Below are positions 9,485-51,015 of a stretch of DNA of 64,000 nt, in pieces. The notes beneath the pieces are model-generated. The model had not been told where the DNA came from. It did not search any database and saw only the letters and a program-made list of their open reading frames with translations. The DNA is from Zetaproteobacteria bacterium CG1_02_55_237 (GTDB lineage Bacteria; Pseudomonadota; Zetaproteobacteria; Mariprofundales; Mariprofundaceae): contig MNXA01000042.1 of assembly GCA_001871195.1 (NCBI GenBank), positions 1 to 64,000 of the forward strand, in the 5' to 3' direction. The stretch's first letter is position 1, and the number at the start of each line of letters is the position of its first letter. Made by a program: the position numbers and the translations under genes.

Positions 9485-10240
9485 ATGCATATCCCGGCAG
9501 AGTTTGAGGCGGCGCATCTGGATGCACAGGAACGCATGGGGCGTTTGGGCAGCTATTACCAATGGATCATCAATAATGTTCGGCCCTACATCGGCCGGCG
9601 CATTTGGGATGCCGGCGCCGGGGTCGGGCATGTTTCCTCAACACTGATTGCCGATGCTGACTATCTTCTGGCCACCGAATTCACCCAGGAAAATGTAAAA
9701 ATTCTTCATGAAAAGTTCGATGCTCTGAGTGCGGCTGAAGTGGTTTTTTGCGATTTGCTCGATGAACAAACATCAAGGTTTGAGTCGCGACATCTGGATA
9801 CCATTGTAAACCTTGATGTGATTGAGCACTTACCAGATGATATGCCTGCTTTGCGCACCTTTTACCGGAATCTTGTGCCGGGAGGGCATTTGTTGATAAA
9901 AGTTCCTGCGCATCCTTTTTTGTTTGGCACGATGGACGAGGCATCGCTTCACTATCGTCGATACAGCGGGAAGATGCTCAGAAGCCGCCTGGAAGATGCC
10001 GGGTTTGAGGTGAAACATATGCGGCATATGAACATGGCTGCAGTGCTGCCGTATTTCATCAAGGGCAGAATATTGAAACGGCAAGGGAACTTTTCGCGTC
10101 AAATCAGCAGTTCACGTATCGGGATGTACAATAAGCTCATCCCGCTCCTGGAAGATTTTGAACGTATTTGCCCTGTTTTTTTTGGCTTGAGCCTGATCGC
10201 TGTTGCCATGAAACACGAGGTGGGAGAAGGTGGTGAATGA
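9485..10240 (+). CDS. Class I SAM-dependent methyltransferase
   Basis: Motif I reads RIWDAGAGVGHVSSTL near residue 40, followed by the acidic residue after strand 2 (LLATEFTQEN) and motif IV/V as TIVNLDVIEHLPDD, with LVPGGHLLIKVPAHP. These make a complete Rossmann methyltransferase of 251 residues. The target could be a sugar hydroxyl or carboxyl, given the context. A GTG at 9479 could start it, but GAGG at 9476-9479 overlaps that codon, so ATG 9485 is preferred. Between it and the previous stop lies only a 54-base gap with no convincing gene. Confidence 0.85.
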   Translation: MHIPAEFEAAHLDAQERMGRLGSYYQWIINNVRPYIGRRIWDAGAGVGHVSSTLIADADYLLATEFTQENVKILHEKFDALSAAEVVFCDLLDEQTSRFESRHLDTIVNLDVIEHLPDDMPALRTFYRNLVPGGHLLIKVPAHPFLFGTMDEASLHYRRYSGKMLRSRLEDAGFEVKHMRHMNMAAVLPYFIKGRILKRQGNFSRQISSSRIGMYNKLIPLLEDFERICPVFFGLSLIAVAMKHEVGEGGE

Positions 10241-10295
10241 GAATGGATAGCAATAGCAGACTATATCAGTGCAGCAAGCTGTCTTGGTTTCAGGC

Positions 10296-11063
10296 ATGAG
10301 TGAGAGATCGCATTTGCAGCGTGAAATCGAGTTGCACGAAAGGATAGCCGAGGATTACCGATTACGTTATGGCTATTCTTTTTCGTTGTATTATAACAGA
10401 TATTGGAACCGCGTGTTGATTAAGCTATTGCCTCAAAAGAGAGATTTGCGGGTTCTCGATCTGGGATGTGGAACAGGGTTTTTTCTTGAAGACGTTTCCA
10501 GAATCCACACTCAATCTGTTGGGCTGGATCTTTCCGTGGCTATGCTGGCAATTGGCCGAGAGAAGCCTGGATTGGAGCGTTTTGTGGCTGGTGATGGATC
10601 GTGCCTGCCATTTGCATCTGAATCGTTTGATGTGATTGTTTGCAGAGGAAGCCTGCATCATATGCCTGACTTGGAGAGAACACTGTCTGAAATGCATAGG
10701 GTATTGGCTCGCGGAGGGCGAGTTGTCATAACTGAACCTAGCAATGACGCGCTGCTTATCCGTTTGGCCAGAAAGTTTATGTATCATGTTTCAGAGAATT
10801 TTGATGAGGAGGATGAAGGGTATCACCTAGATGATCTGGAGAAGCGTTTTGAGAAGGCCGGGCTTAGCCCTATAGTCGTCAGACGTTTTGGCTTTTTTGG
10901 ATATGTTTTCGCAGGATTTCCAGATCGACTGGGCATATTGAAGTATATTCCTGGAAGCCTCCTGTTTACCAAGGTGTTTATCTGGATGGATAACATTGTG
11001 GAAAAAACCCCTATTTTGAAACATCTCTGTTTCCAGATTGTGGGAAGTTTTGAAAAAAAATGA
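10296..11063 (+). CDS. Class I SAM-dependent methyltransferase
   Basis: The SAM motif RVLDLGCGTGFFLEDV stands near residue 53. It is followed by GLDLSVAMLAIG, VAGDGSCLPFASESFDV, and LARGGRVVITEPS, the ubiE/type 11 pattern. At 255 residues the domain is whole. Base composition drops in A+T-rich direction from about here to 12050, unlike the flanking genes, which suggests a separate origin for this part of the cluster. A GTG at 10269 would add nine residues. The stop overlaps the next ATG by 4 bases, so both are probably translated together. Substrate unknown. Confidence 0.85.
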   Translation: MSERSHLQREIELHERIAEDYRLRYGYSFSLYYNRYWNRVLIKLLPQKRDLRVLDLGCGTGFFLEDVSRIHTQSVGLDLSVAMLAIGREKPGLERFVAGDGSCLPFASESFDVIVCRGSLHHMPDLERTLSEMHRVLARGGRVVITEPSNDALLIRLARKFMYHVSENFDEEDEGYHLDDLEKRFEKAGLSPIVVRRFGFFGYVFAGFPDRLGILKYIPGSLLFTKVFIWMDNIVEKTPILKHLCFQIVGSFEKK

Positions 11064-12034
11064 AGCTTGCATTTTCGGTACTGGTAACCCTTCTATTTGT
11101 TGGCATCTGCCTGTACTGGATAGGTGTTGAGCATTTCTATCTTACACTGTTGACCCTGCAACTCTCTCAAGTAGGGGCTATTTTCATTCTTTTTTTTATA
11201 AGTATTTTTCTAAGAGGATGGCGGATTGAATTGACGTTGGGTGGCGAGCTGTCTATGCCACACCTAGAGTATTTCATTGTGGCATCTCTGCATAATATAG
11301 CAAATCAACTCATGCCTATTCGTTCTGGGGAGTTGGCATACCCGTATCTGTTACATCGTTATTTTGGTTACAAATTGGCTAAAGGGGCAGCTTCTCTTCT
11401 CTATATTCGGTTCTTTGAGCTGTTTGTTCTTTTCATTCTTTTTTTGGCGGCTCTTTTTGGTATTGCCGGTGTAAAAACAGGCTATGGTATTAATCAGGTT
11501 TTCGCTGGGGTTGCGGTACTGGCATTGGTGGCAGTGATCACTTGGTTAAATCTTTCTAAGATTTTGAAGTGTGTCTCGACGTGGTTGGCAAGAACGATTC
11601 ATAATCGTTCTGGGTATTTGATTGGCCTATTAGAGGTTCTTTCAAAGCTGTTGGAATCTCTCTCTGATGAGTTGAACCTGAAAAAAACTCTGGCTTTGCA
11701 TTTTGTGACGGGGATATTGACCCTACTGAACTGGGTTTGTCTCTTTATGATTTTTTATGTTGTTTTGCATGCTGTGGGAATATCAGTGAGTGTTTATGAA
11801 ACAATCATTGGCTCTACTATTGCGAGTTTGGCGCAATTAATTCCTGTGAGCACGATGGGGAGTTTTGGTTCTCTTGAGGCGGGCTGGACAGCAGGCTTTA
11901 TGATGGTTGGCGTTGATATGAAATCGGCTTTGAATTCCGGTCTGGTGATGCATTTTATGGTTGTTTCATGTTCGATAATACTGGCAAGTTTAGGCTGGTT
12001 AGGTTTGCAACTTATGCAGGGTAGAAGAGATTAA
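11060..12034 (+). CDS. YbhN/UPF0104-type membrane protein (LPG synthase TM-like)
   Basis: About eight membrane helices span 324 residues. The family landmarks are seen: a conserved RGWRIEL after helix 2, LMPIRSGELAYPYLL near residue 90, and IPVSTMGSFGSLEAGW near residue 265. This is the flippase-like domain also found in the membrane part of lysylphosphatidylglycerol synthase. Proteins of this group often stand beside polyprenyl-phosphate sugar genes, where a role in lipid handling has been suggested but not settled. The gene is clearly A+T-rich compared with its neighbours. A second, unlinked family member is at 23431. Confidence 0.82.
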   Translation: MKLAFSVLVTLLFVGICLYWIGVEHFYLTLLTLQLSQVGAIFILFFISIFLRGWRIELTLGGELSMPHLEYFIVASLHNIANQLMPIRSGELAYPYLLHRYFGYKLAKGAASLLYIRFFELFVLFILFLAALFGIAGVKTGYGINQVFAGVAVLALVAVITWLNLSKILKCVSTWLARTIHNRSGYLIGLLEVLSKLLESLSDELNLKKTLALHFVTGILTLLNWVCLFMIFYVVLHAVGISVSVYETIIGSTIASLAQLIPVSTMGSFGSLEAGWTAGFMMVGVDMKSALNSGLVMHFMVVSCSIILASLGWLGLQLMQGRRD

Positions 12035-24440: not shown

Positions 24441-24505
24441 GAAGTGAATTTCTGTCTATGATGTGTATAGGCATGGGTGCGTATTGCCTGTGTTCTGGAG
24501 GTGCG

Positions 24506-25189
24506 ATGGCTGTGGCAGATAAGGGCTCATTGGGGAATTGCACCATCCATGCCGGGAGTAAGGCGAGTTTCCGGTGCTCCCAATGCAAACGCTCCTATTG
24601 CCCGGATTGTATCGGTCGGGAAGAAGCCGGGCAGATGATATGCACTCAATGCATGATCGCCATTAACCATCAGGAAAAAGAAGAATTAAAGAAGGCCGTT
24701 GAGTTCGATCTCAAGGAAAAGCGCGCAGCGGAAAAAAACATCCCGGCGCAGAAGGTCAAGTCCGGCAAAGGGCTGTTCTATGGTTTTATAGCCGTAGCTG
24801 TTCTGGGGATCGGCTTTAATCTTTATGTTCTTTATCAGGATCGTACCCAGGCCTCTGCCGCTGATGTGGCCAAGACGCCGGCCATGTCCTCCCAGCTTGC
24901 CGGCATCCGGCTATGCCGCCATCGCTTAACTGCTCTTTCGGAGGCTGTGGTGGCCTATCAGAATGAGCTTGAAGCAATGCCCGAAAATCTTGATGACCTG
25001 AAGCCGAGATTGGATTCGCAGGATATTACGCGCGATCCGGTATCGGGGCTTGAATACAGATTTGCCAAAGATGCTGGTGGTGGCTTGGTGCTTCAATGTC
25101 CATCTCCTTCTGCCCATGGTGTTGAGTCGATTGAGGTGCAACCGGGGAAGGCCGCCGTGGTGAAATATCTGGAGCTGGGGAACAGATGA
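24506..25189 (+). CDS. B-box zinc-finger membrane protein with pilin-like C-terminal domain
   Basis: Residues about 9-45 form a B-box type zinc site: CTIH, then FRCSQC, YCPDC and MICTQCM, with spacing suited to two metal ions. A charged Lys/Glu linker leads to one membrane helix at about 90-110 ([20 protein letters not shown]). The remaining 115 residues, presumably outside the membrane, have [19 protein letters not shown] and [12 protein letters not shown], which resemble the C-terminal part of GspG-like pseudopilins. The start ATG 24506 has TGGAGG six bases before it. The stop overlaps the pseudopilin start, so the two are probably made together. Function unknown. Confidence 0.72.
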
Positions 25190-26145
25190 TGGCGACGAAA
25201 CATAGCCAAGGGTTTACCCTCATTGAACTCCTCACCGTGATTGTCGTTGTCGGGATATTGGCGGCAACATCAATTACTTCATTTAAAACCACTGTAAAAC
25301 AGGCAAATCTGCTGACTGCGGAAGTTACCCTGAAGCAGGCGATTGATGCTTATAGTGTAGCCAATGATTATAGCCCGGCCATGCTGGAGGATCTGGTTAC
25401 AGAGGGTTTTTTGACGGATATTCCCAATGATCCTTTTACCGCATTGGGAAGTGCAACGCTTGTGGCTTCAAGCCCCGTGGGTGGTTTTGTTGCAGCCGCC
25501 TATGCAGCGCTTGCCGGAACCGGGGTTGATGAGGCTGGCGACTGGTTTTTTGAGAACGATGGTCAGAATGTGACGCTCTATGCGCTCAGTCATCCGGGTC
25601 GGGATTATGTGCTGGCGAGTTTTGGTATGCCTCCTGGTATTGCACCCCCTTCCGCGGGTGGTACGCCTACCCCAACGCCTACCCCAACGCCTACCCCAAC
25701 GCCTACCCCAACGCCTACCCCAACGCCTACCCCAACGCCTACACCAACGCCTACACCAACGCCTACACCAACGCCTACCCCAACGCCTACCCCAACGCCT
25801 ACCCCAACGCCTACCCCAACGCCTACCCCAACGCCTACACCCATAATCATGACCGATAGCGAGGCCAAGGCTGCAGGGAAGGCCCTGGTGGCTGATGTGC
25901 AAGCAGCCCAGAAGGCACTTGTTAAACAGGCGGAAGCAGACAGTGAAGCCCTGATCAAGCAGGCAGAGAAGGATGCCAAGAGCCTCTCCAAGAATGACGG
26001 GAAAGCTCTTATTTCAGCAGCAGAAAAGGAAGGCAAAGCATTGATATTAGCGGCTAAAAGCGTTGAGAAGGCTGCGCTTGCAGATGCGAAAGCCGAGCAG
26101 AAGGCCATGGAAGCTGCTGCCAAAGCGGGCATTCCTTATCCATAA
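25186..26145 (+). CDS. Pseudopilin-like protein with Thr-Pro linker and Ala/Lys-rich tail
   Basis: Residues 9-30 hold a prepilin peptidase site and helix, [20 protein letters not shown], with the glutamate at +5. A pilin-like domain follows to about residue 155, with [19 protein letters not shown] and [10 protein letters not shown]. Then comes a linker of 30 Thr-Pro pairs (residues 160-219), encoded by a 12-base tandem repeat. The last about 100 residues are rich in Ala, Lys and Glu with a regular heptad-like spacing, suggesting a long helix or coiled coil. The 319-residue length and the C-terminal tail are unusual for a pilin. No other secretion or pilus genes are in the window. Confidence 0.8.
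25663..25842 (+). repeat. 12-base tandem repeat inside the pseudopilin gene
   Basis: Fifteen copies of the unit ACGCCTACCCCA, each coding Thr-Pro-Thr-Pro, lie head to tail in frame. Copies 7, 8 and 9 share an ACC-to-ACA change, and the last copy ends ACACCC. The block of three identical variants points to recent duplication or slippage. Because the unit is a multiple of three, copy-number change would lengthen or shorten the linker without breaking the frame. Confidence 0.97.
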
Positions 26146-50502: not shown

Positions 50503-51015
50503 ATGGCAACAATGATTCGCCTGCAGCGCGGTGGCCGCAAGAAGCGTCCGTTTTACTCCATCGTTGTGATGGACAAACGTGATCGCCGTGACGGTGCATT
50601 CATCGAGAAGCTCGGCTACTACGATCCGTGCACGACGCCTGATGTGCTCGAACTCAATCTGGAGCGCGTCAATGCGTGGAAGGCGGAGGGCGCTGAGGTG
50701 TCCGGTCGCGTTGCCAGCCTGATTCGTCTGGCTGAGAACCCTGAGCTGGCCGCCAAGGCATCTGCCAAGGCAGAAGCAGCTGTCGCAGCCAAGAAGGCAG
50801 CCGCAGAGGCCAAGATCAAGGCTGAAGCTGAAGCTGCTGCCAAGGCCAAGGCTGATGCCGAAGCTGAGGCCAAGGCTGCCGAGAAGGCCGCTGCCAAGGC
50901 TGCTGCCGACGAAGCCGCTGCTGAAGCTGCTGCCGCAGAGCCAGCTGTTGAGGCCGCTGCTGAACCAGCTGCAGAGGCTGAAGAAGCTGTCGCTGAGGAC
51001 AAAAAAGACGTCTGA
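50503..51015 (+). CDS. rpsP: 30S ribosomal protein S16 with long alanine-rich extension
   Basis: Residues 1-85 are a normal S16 (MATMIRLQRGGRKKRPFYSI, then GAFIEKLGYYDP and ASLIRLAENPE). The usual protein ends near here, at 80-90 residues. This one continues for about 85 more, almost only Ala, Glu and Lys, turning to Ala/Glu/Pro near the end. The extension should form a long charged helix and then a flexible acidic end. CCGGAGG lies before the ATG. Its last part overlaps the possible start of rimM. Confidence 0.95.
   Translation: MATMIRLQRGGRKKRPFYSIVVMDKRDRRDGAFIEKLGYYDPCTTPDVLELNLERVNAWKAEGAEVSGRVASLIRLAENPELAAKASAKAEAAVAAKKAAAEAKIKAEAEAAAKAKADAEAEAKAAEKAAAKAAADEAAAEAAAAEPAVEAAAEPAAEAEEAVAEDKKDV

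Follow-up and report, generated by a model that had tools for sequence, protein, structure and literature searches.

Why should a prepilin with a long repetitive arm be encoded, in some marine iron-oxidising bacteria, together with a membrane protein that carries a predicted B-box-type zinc domain? This question is raised by two overlapping genes, P0001 and P0002, which lie at 24506–26145 in the 64000-nucleotide stretch of DNA that we analysed in full (the window; Zetaproteobacteria bacterium CG1_02_55_237, contig MNXA01000042.1, positions 1 to 64000). Little is understood of how the type IV pilus machine selects among minor pilins, and a membrane partner inherited together with the pilin, with a zinc domain in the cytoplasm and in some members a pilin-like outer domain, would give a compact and testable example of a helper dedicated to one subunit. 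The reading that we prefer, and to which we give an even chance, is that P0001 and P0002 together make up an accessory unit for type IV pili, encoded by two genes and consisting of a modular minor pilin and its dedicated inner-membrane partner.

Co-inheritance of the two genes

A first-pass annotation of this DNA described two overlapping genes, which are indeed present and overlap by ATGA, and took them to be a joint system. To place them among their relatives we used a family sample of 74 genomes, in which G000 denotes the genome of the window and the other G numbers its relatives, and searched it with profiles of the pilin head and of the B-box/helix region at a threshold of E ≤ 0.001. The pilin-head profile matched nine genomes, seven of them strongly; G012 was kept apart, and G106 was left out of the count because its match is its own GspG. 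In the G012 pilin (L058, 4764–6155) LTPEQIA-like units recur along an extended tail. All seven genomes with a close pilin relative (G000, G001, G008, G011, G033, G044 and G045) keep a B-box gene as its neighbour, side by side on the same strand, and the genome-neighbour search thus bears out a joint system. In six of the seven pairs the genes overlap by 4–8 bp (4 or 1 bp in G001, depending on the start chosen), and in G045 a 2-bp gap separates them. The pair occupies six settings, as G011 and G044 have one in common.

The B-box search matched ten of the 74 genomes and, with G005, G004 and a second place in G045 set aside, gave eight family members. Seven of these adjoin this type of pilin; in the eighth, G020, a long B-box protein is encoded 103 bp from a divergent prepilin gene, the product of which resembles PilA of G000 (32% over 179 residues). 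Five other B-box genes of a phylum sample of 398 genomes had no prepilin motif within their loci of approximately 3 kb. B-box proteins of approximately 450–500 residues with multiple hydrophobic stretches, encoded away from prepilin genes, were also seen in G005, G045, G181 and G208 (L098, L101, L104 and L105). The pilin-head profile matched 19 genomes of the phylum sample, eight of them strongly (E ≤ 1e-30) and all eight within the family, so that no strong match lay beyond the family among these 398 genomes; the 11 weak ones (E 3e-6 to 7e-4; five in the family and six outside), of which G106 alone was inspected, were taken as general pilins. The sole search beyond the phylum sample was a one-pattern peptide scan of genome contigs, in which four of 26 candidates were confirmed.

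The two proteins also diverge together. In all seven pairs the subtype of the pilin goes with whether the B-box protein has an outer domain: heads with SHP(G/N)R..SFG are paired with long B-box proteins (G000, G008 and G045), and heads with SG(R/K)G..SLG with short ones (G001, G011, G033 and G044). Identities among the B-box proteins follow those among the pilins with a Spearman coefficient of 0.75, compared with 0.32 and 0.33 for each against a flanking gene, over 21 non-independent pairs. That flanking gene is presumably a flippase, and the gene on the other side of the pair we take to encode an M24-type peptidase, both being named from the look of the sequence. In G002, G001 and G033 the flippase-like and M24-peptidase-like genes are directly convergent and the junction is closed; among the other junction loci listed, L083 stops at this point and other frames occur there in L084 and L087. 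Between the congeners G000 and G001, identity is 70% for the flippase, 22% for the B-box region and 46% for the pilin head; between G000 and G008 the corresponding values are 47, 40 and 55%. The closed junctions, together with these contrasts in identity, indicate that the pair moved, or was differentially lost, as a unit, and its distribution argues that it is a real inherited one. A promoter of its own had been claimed for the pair, but the two promoter-like sites found, against 1.5 ± 1.2 expected, are no better than chance.

Features of the P0001–P0002 pair, in positions of the window
Feature	Position	Strand	Basis
P0001: 227 residues, with a zinc domain of the B-box type, a single membrane helix and a GspG-like outer domain	24506–25189	+	frame, sequence, Pfam, profile
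Zinc domain, residues 12–49 of P0001	24539–24652	+	sequence, Pfam, alignment of relatives
Membrane helix of P0001, about residues 90–110	24773–24835	+	hydrophobicity, sequence
Outer domain of P0001: two invariant Cys, CPxPxxH motif	24896–25168	+	profile comparison
ATGA overlap of P0001 and P0002	25186–25189	+	sequence
P0002: modular prepilin, 319 residues	25186–26145	+	frame, Pfam, TIGRFAM
Pilin module of P0002: GFTLIE cleavage/methylation motif, N-terminal helix and GspG-like head (residues 9–147)	25210–25626	+	
(Thr-Pro)30 linker, residues 160–219, encoded by a 12-bp unit repeated 15 times in tandem	25663–25842	+	sequence
Tail of P0002: predicted two-helix hairpin	25843–26142	+	predicted model, sequence

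P0002, a prepilin with an arm and a tail

P0002 is identified as a prepilin by its N-terminal motif, which scores above the cut-offs of both PF07963 (29.2 bits; cut-off 21.2) and TIGR02532 (28.5 bits; cut-off 16.3). Its head is nearest to GspG: compared with a GspG profile by hhalign it gave an E-value of 4.1e-7, equalled in none of 200 shuffles, and seven of the nine matches listed for it are named protein G or EpsG, all at E 0.013 or worse. Against the GspG family itself (TIGR01710) the protein scores 27.6 bits, far below the cut-off of 88.85.

The linker holds exactly 30 Thr-Pro units, as had been described, and the tail is modelled by AlphaFold as two helices (residues 224–264 and 269–314) with block values of the predicted local distance difference test (pLDDT) of 77–93 over residues 221–310, in agreement with the Ala/Lys-rich helical tail proposed at first; the model of P0002 as a whole is of low confidence. 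No recognised Pfam domain was found in the tail. Foldseek returned 119 matches for P0002, none at E ≤ 0.001, and in VIA 33 of 301 chains reached Z ≥ 8, the matches listed falling on the tail; these we take as common helical hairpins. Among the relatives the GFTLIE motif and Glu5 are conserved in the pilin module, and linkers and tails vary: the linkers are Thr-Pro, Gly-Thr-Pro-Pro or Gly/Ala runs, with an acidic Ser/Glu/Asn-rich one in G045, and the tails of G000, G008, G011, G033 and G044 contain 23–29% Ala and range from neutral to basic, with a net charge of +1 to +16. The G001 pilin frame reaches the end of its contig. A PADLOC match to the Thr-Pro linker (E 0.0059), the sole one to a defence system, was rejected because of its low complexity, and neither P0001 nor P0002 was matched in a plasmid search.

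P0001 and its zinc domain

The start of P0001 at 24506 is preceded by TGGAGG, the longest frame beginning at 24458. Its N-terminal region has eight residues with B-box spacing (C12, H15, C24, C27, C32, C35, C46 and C49) and is followed by a single hydrophobic segment, so that a candidate zinc site and the one membrane helix attributed to this protein were both found. Across seven aligned relatives C12, C24, C27, C35, C46 and C49 are invariant, and H15 and C32 vary. The best Pfam matches of P0001 are B-box models, lying close to their cut-offs: PF22586 gave 25.2 bits (cut-off 27), and PF00643 gave 23.7 bits (cut-off 24.1) in the protein search and 25.8 bits, above cut-off, in a six-frame search. 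In the relatives the six-frame search placed PF00643 above cut-off in G011, G044 and G001 and below it in G033, and gave no match at E 0.001 in G008 or G020. The nearest solved sequences to the zinc domain belong to RING and B-box proteins, among them RNF4 (E 0.0022) and Midline-1 (E 0.016), all of them weak matches. A Lys-rich stretch ahead of the helix would, by the positive-inside rule, place the N-terminus, and hence the predicted zinc domain, in the cytoplasm.

Resemblance of the outer domain to GspG

The part of P0001 beyond the membrane helix had been said to resemble the C-termini of pseudopilins. A profile of this domain found it in four of 388 genomes (G000, G008, G020 and G045), in each case in a B-box protein of the family. 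Compared with a profile of seven GspG sequences it gave an hhalign score of 27.9 (E 1.4e-4), which none of 200 column shuffles reached (maximum 20.7), a control that overstates significance because it destroys helix periodicity too; the reversed controls scored 8.2 and 8.5. Among 209 other natural windows the highest score was 18.2. A first grouping had supplied two families and seven such windows, and a looser one 32 families and 211 windows, from which the two containing the outer domain were removed; many of these families have two members only, compared with four for the outer-domain query. The outer domain is thus likely to be pilin-like at the level of the profile, although the structure searches described below list no pilin. 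Its two invariant cysteines would suit an extracytoplasmic disulphide. The pattern P-x-x-L-x-D-L followed by DP, which had been noted in both proteins, does occur in both, but its spacing in P0002 is specific to the window, as the seven relatives have two extra residues.

Which machine the pair may use

Of the secretion and pilus genes, those of type II secretion are the informative ones. PilQ scores above its cut-off in all seven genomes with the pair. In G011, G033 and G044, which are 99% complete and two of which consist of one contig each, neither GspG nor GspD is above cut-off; the same holds for both proteins in G045 and for GspG in G001, genomes that are incomplete. Across the family sample, 49 of the 74 genomes have a GspG above cut-off; GspD and GspG both are in G000 and G008, and G001 has GspD only. 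The presence of PilQ is compatible with a pilus machine; type II secretion is lacking from three genomes that retain the pair, which must there use another machine. The label of pseudopilin given to P0002 is not supported by these genomes or by its GspG family score. No assembly genes adjoin the pair in the window, and it is an orphan in this local sense, but PilQ is encoded on another contig of the same genome (C51) and GspD and GspG on a further one (C8), and in G033 a pilQ gene converges on the pair, about 300 bp from its end. Flp/Tad pili are reported for the Mariprofundus strains CP-5 and CP-8 (M. aestuarium and M. ferrinatatus) in the passages concerned of PMC5513912. Because P0002 is of the N_methyl type, we would favour a type IVa machine over Tad.

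A possible mechanism and its difficulties

If the pair does act as an accessory to the type IV pilus, prepilin peptidase would cut P0002 before F10 and its pilin module would be incorporated into the fibre, where the Thr-Pro arm may hold the two-helix tail at a distance, the tail probably being a binding or bridging element. The single helix of P0001 would span the membrane in the manner of a pilin, and its zinc domain, facing the cytoplasm, might bind the assembly platform, the motor, or a protease or chaperone; in one subclade the GspG-like outer domain may contact the pilin head. P0001 could thereby retain the modular pilin until it is assembled, pass it on to the machine or set its level. 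A more specific and distinctly speculative proposal, which we think improbable, is that P0001 is an uncut mimic of a pilin, with the leader replaced by a cytoplasmic zinc domain, which pairs with the modular pilin through the GspG-like domain and signals the readiness of the subunit to the cytoplasm or the assembly motor. Were this true, the type IV pilus would have in P0001 a factor that loads, or acts as a checkpoint for, one particular subunit.

Several observations weigh against this reading of the pair as a pilus accessory unit. PilQ was matched in 72 of the 74 family genomes (above cut-off in 58) and is so nearly universal that its presence with the pair is compatible with the proposal but carries little weight. 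The B-box proteins of G001, G011, G033 and G044 have no outer domain, and the pilin-like domain is therefore dispensable in about half of the pairs. Where the domain is present, the probability of the match to GspG is just 52% over 65 columns and most of the score comes from the helix half; single outer-domain sequences score 9.9–19.5, that of the window being the lowest and at shuffle level, and the heads of the partner pilins give a weak match (score 17.0, probability 2.5%, E 0.019, reached by two of 200 shuffles). The AlphaFold model of P0001 is of low confidence, the outer domain having a mean pLDDT of 55.6 and appearing as a helix, a short helix and strands with values mostly of 53–79. 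Foldseek returned 435 hits with E ≤ 10, of which none reached E ≤ 0.001, and in VIA 47 of 999 chains reached Z ≥ 2 and none Z ≥ 5, with no pilin among the matches listed by either; the 42 rows from a comparison with PDB sequences likewise included no pilin. The G045 tail is acidic (-13) and not Ala/Lys-rich. In addition, G012 has a distant pilin of the same head type (E 7.6e-22) with a different tail of 300 residues, and the B-box/helix profile found no match in that genome.

Alternative explanations

P0001 may instead be a regulator that controls pilin expression or turnover through zinc or proteolysis at its cytoplasmic B-box, in response to the state of the pilin pool outside. This is unlikely, though it is the rival that we take most seriously: it is the zinc domain of the protein that stays invariant, whereas half of the family has lost the outer domain, but protein-family searches found no protease, kinase or DNA-binding domain in P0001, and no regulator gene is common to the settings examined. 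Much less probable is a role for P0002 outside any fibre, in which the cleaved protein stays anchored in the membrane and its periplasmic arm has a spanning function of the TolA/TonB type. The linker and tail do score 24.2 bits against TolA, but this is below the cut-off of 59.45 and probably reflects composition, and it is the pilin module, including GFTLIE and Glu5, that is kept while linkers and tails vary. More doubtful still is that the genes are co-transferred neighbours with no joint function; the patchy distribution and the closed junctions imply movement or loss, but the overlap in six of seven pairs, the adjacency across six settings and the correlated divergence argue against mere proximity. 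Least probable of all, despite a head that is nearest to GspG and the presence of GspD and GspG in the genome of the window, is that P0002 is a GspG paralogue that serves as substrate for the pseudopilus of type II secretion, given its score against that family, the three genomes that keep the pair with neither protein above cut-off, and an arm that would be ill-suited to a short periplasmic pseudopilus.

Other features of the window

A long same-strand run of genes resembling those for polysaccharide synthesis and glycosyltransferases extends over 380–21226 and ends approximately 3.3 kb before the pair; within it the G+C content drops to 0.435 at 10001–12000. At 50503–51015 lies a gene that looks like that of ribosomal protein S16; its repetitive extension, rich in Ala, Lys and Glu, spans tandem repeats at 50806–50972.

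Comparison with known systems

Our literature search found no publication linking a B-box with a pilin, the type IV pilus or a rhomboid; subscription papers lay mostly outside the search, and absence in print is not thereby established. The closest likeness for P0002 is to the modular type IV pilins PilB and PilC of Streptococcus sanguinis, in which, in the passages of PMC8179133 that deal with them, a pilin module is joined to an extra module. P0002 likewise has a pilin module followed by an extra module that would ride on the fibre, but differs in its long low-complexity arm, in a helical hairpin without a Pfam domain and in a co-inherited, putatively zinc-binding membrane partner, of which those same passages (PMC8179133) make no mention. 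GspG shares with P0002 a head profile with a DP(W/F) turn, and the outer domain of P0001 resembles GspG too, whereas P0002 falls below the family cut-off and also occurs where neither GspG nor GspD reaches its own. Prokaryotic B-box proteins were reportedly described by Burroughs et al. in 2011. Such proteins, as summarised in part of PMC4506424, are like P0001, with its candidate domain of this type, in having a B-box-type zinc domain in a membrane protein; P0001 differs in its last ligand pair, which is C-x2-C, in its pairing with a pilin and, in four members, in the GspG-like outer domain. One conserved pilin head thus bears differing arms (Thr-Pro, Gly-Thr-Pro-Pro and Gly-Ala) in iron-oxidising bacteria, and such variation of arms and tails on a constant carrier head fits the idea of a modular pilin. 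This kind of pilin is known, and the variant described in the present study would add to it a putatively zinc-binding membrane partner.
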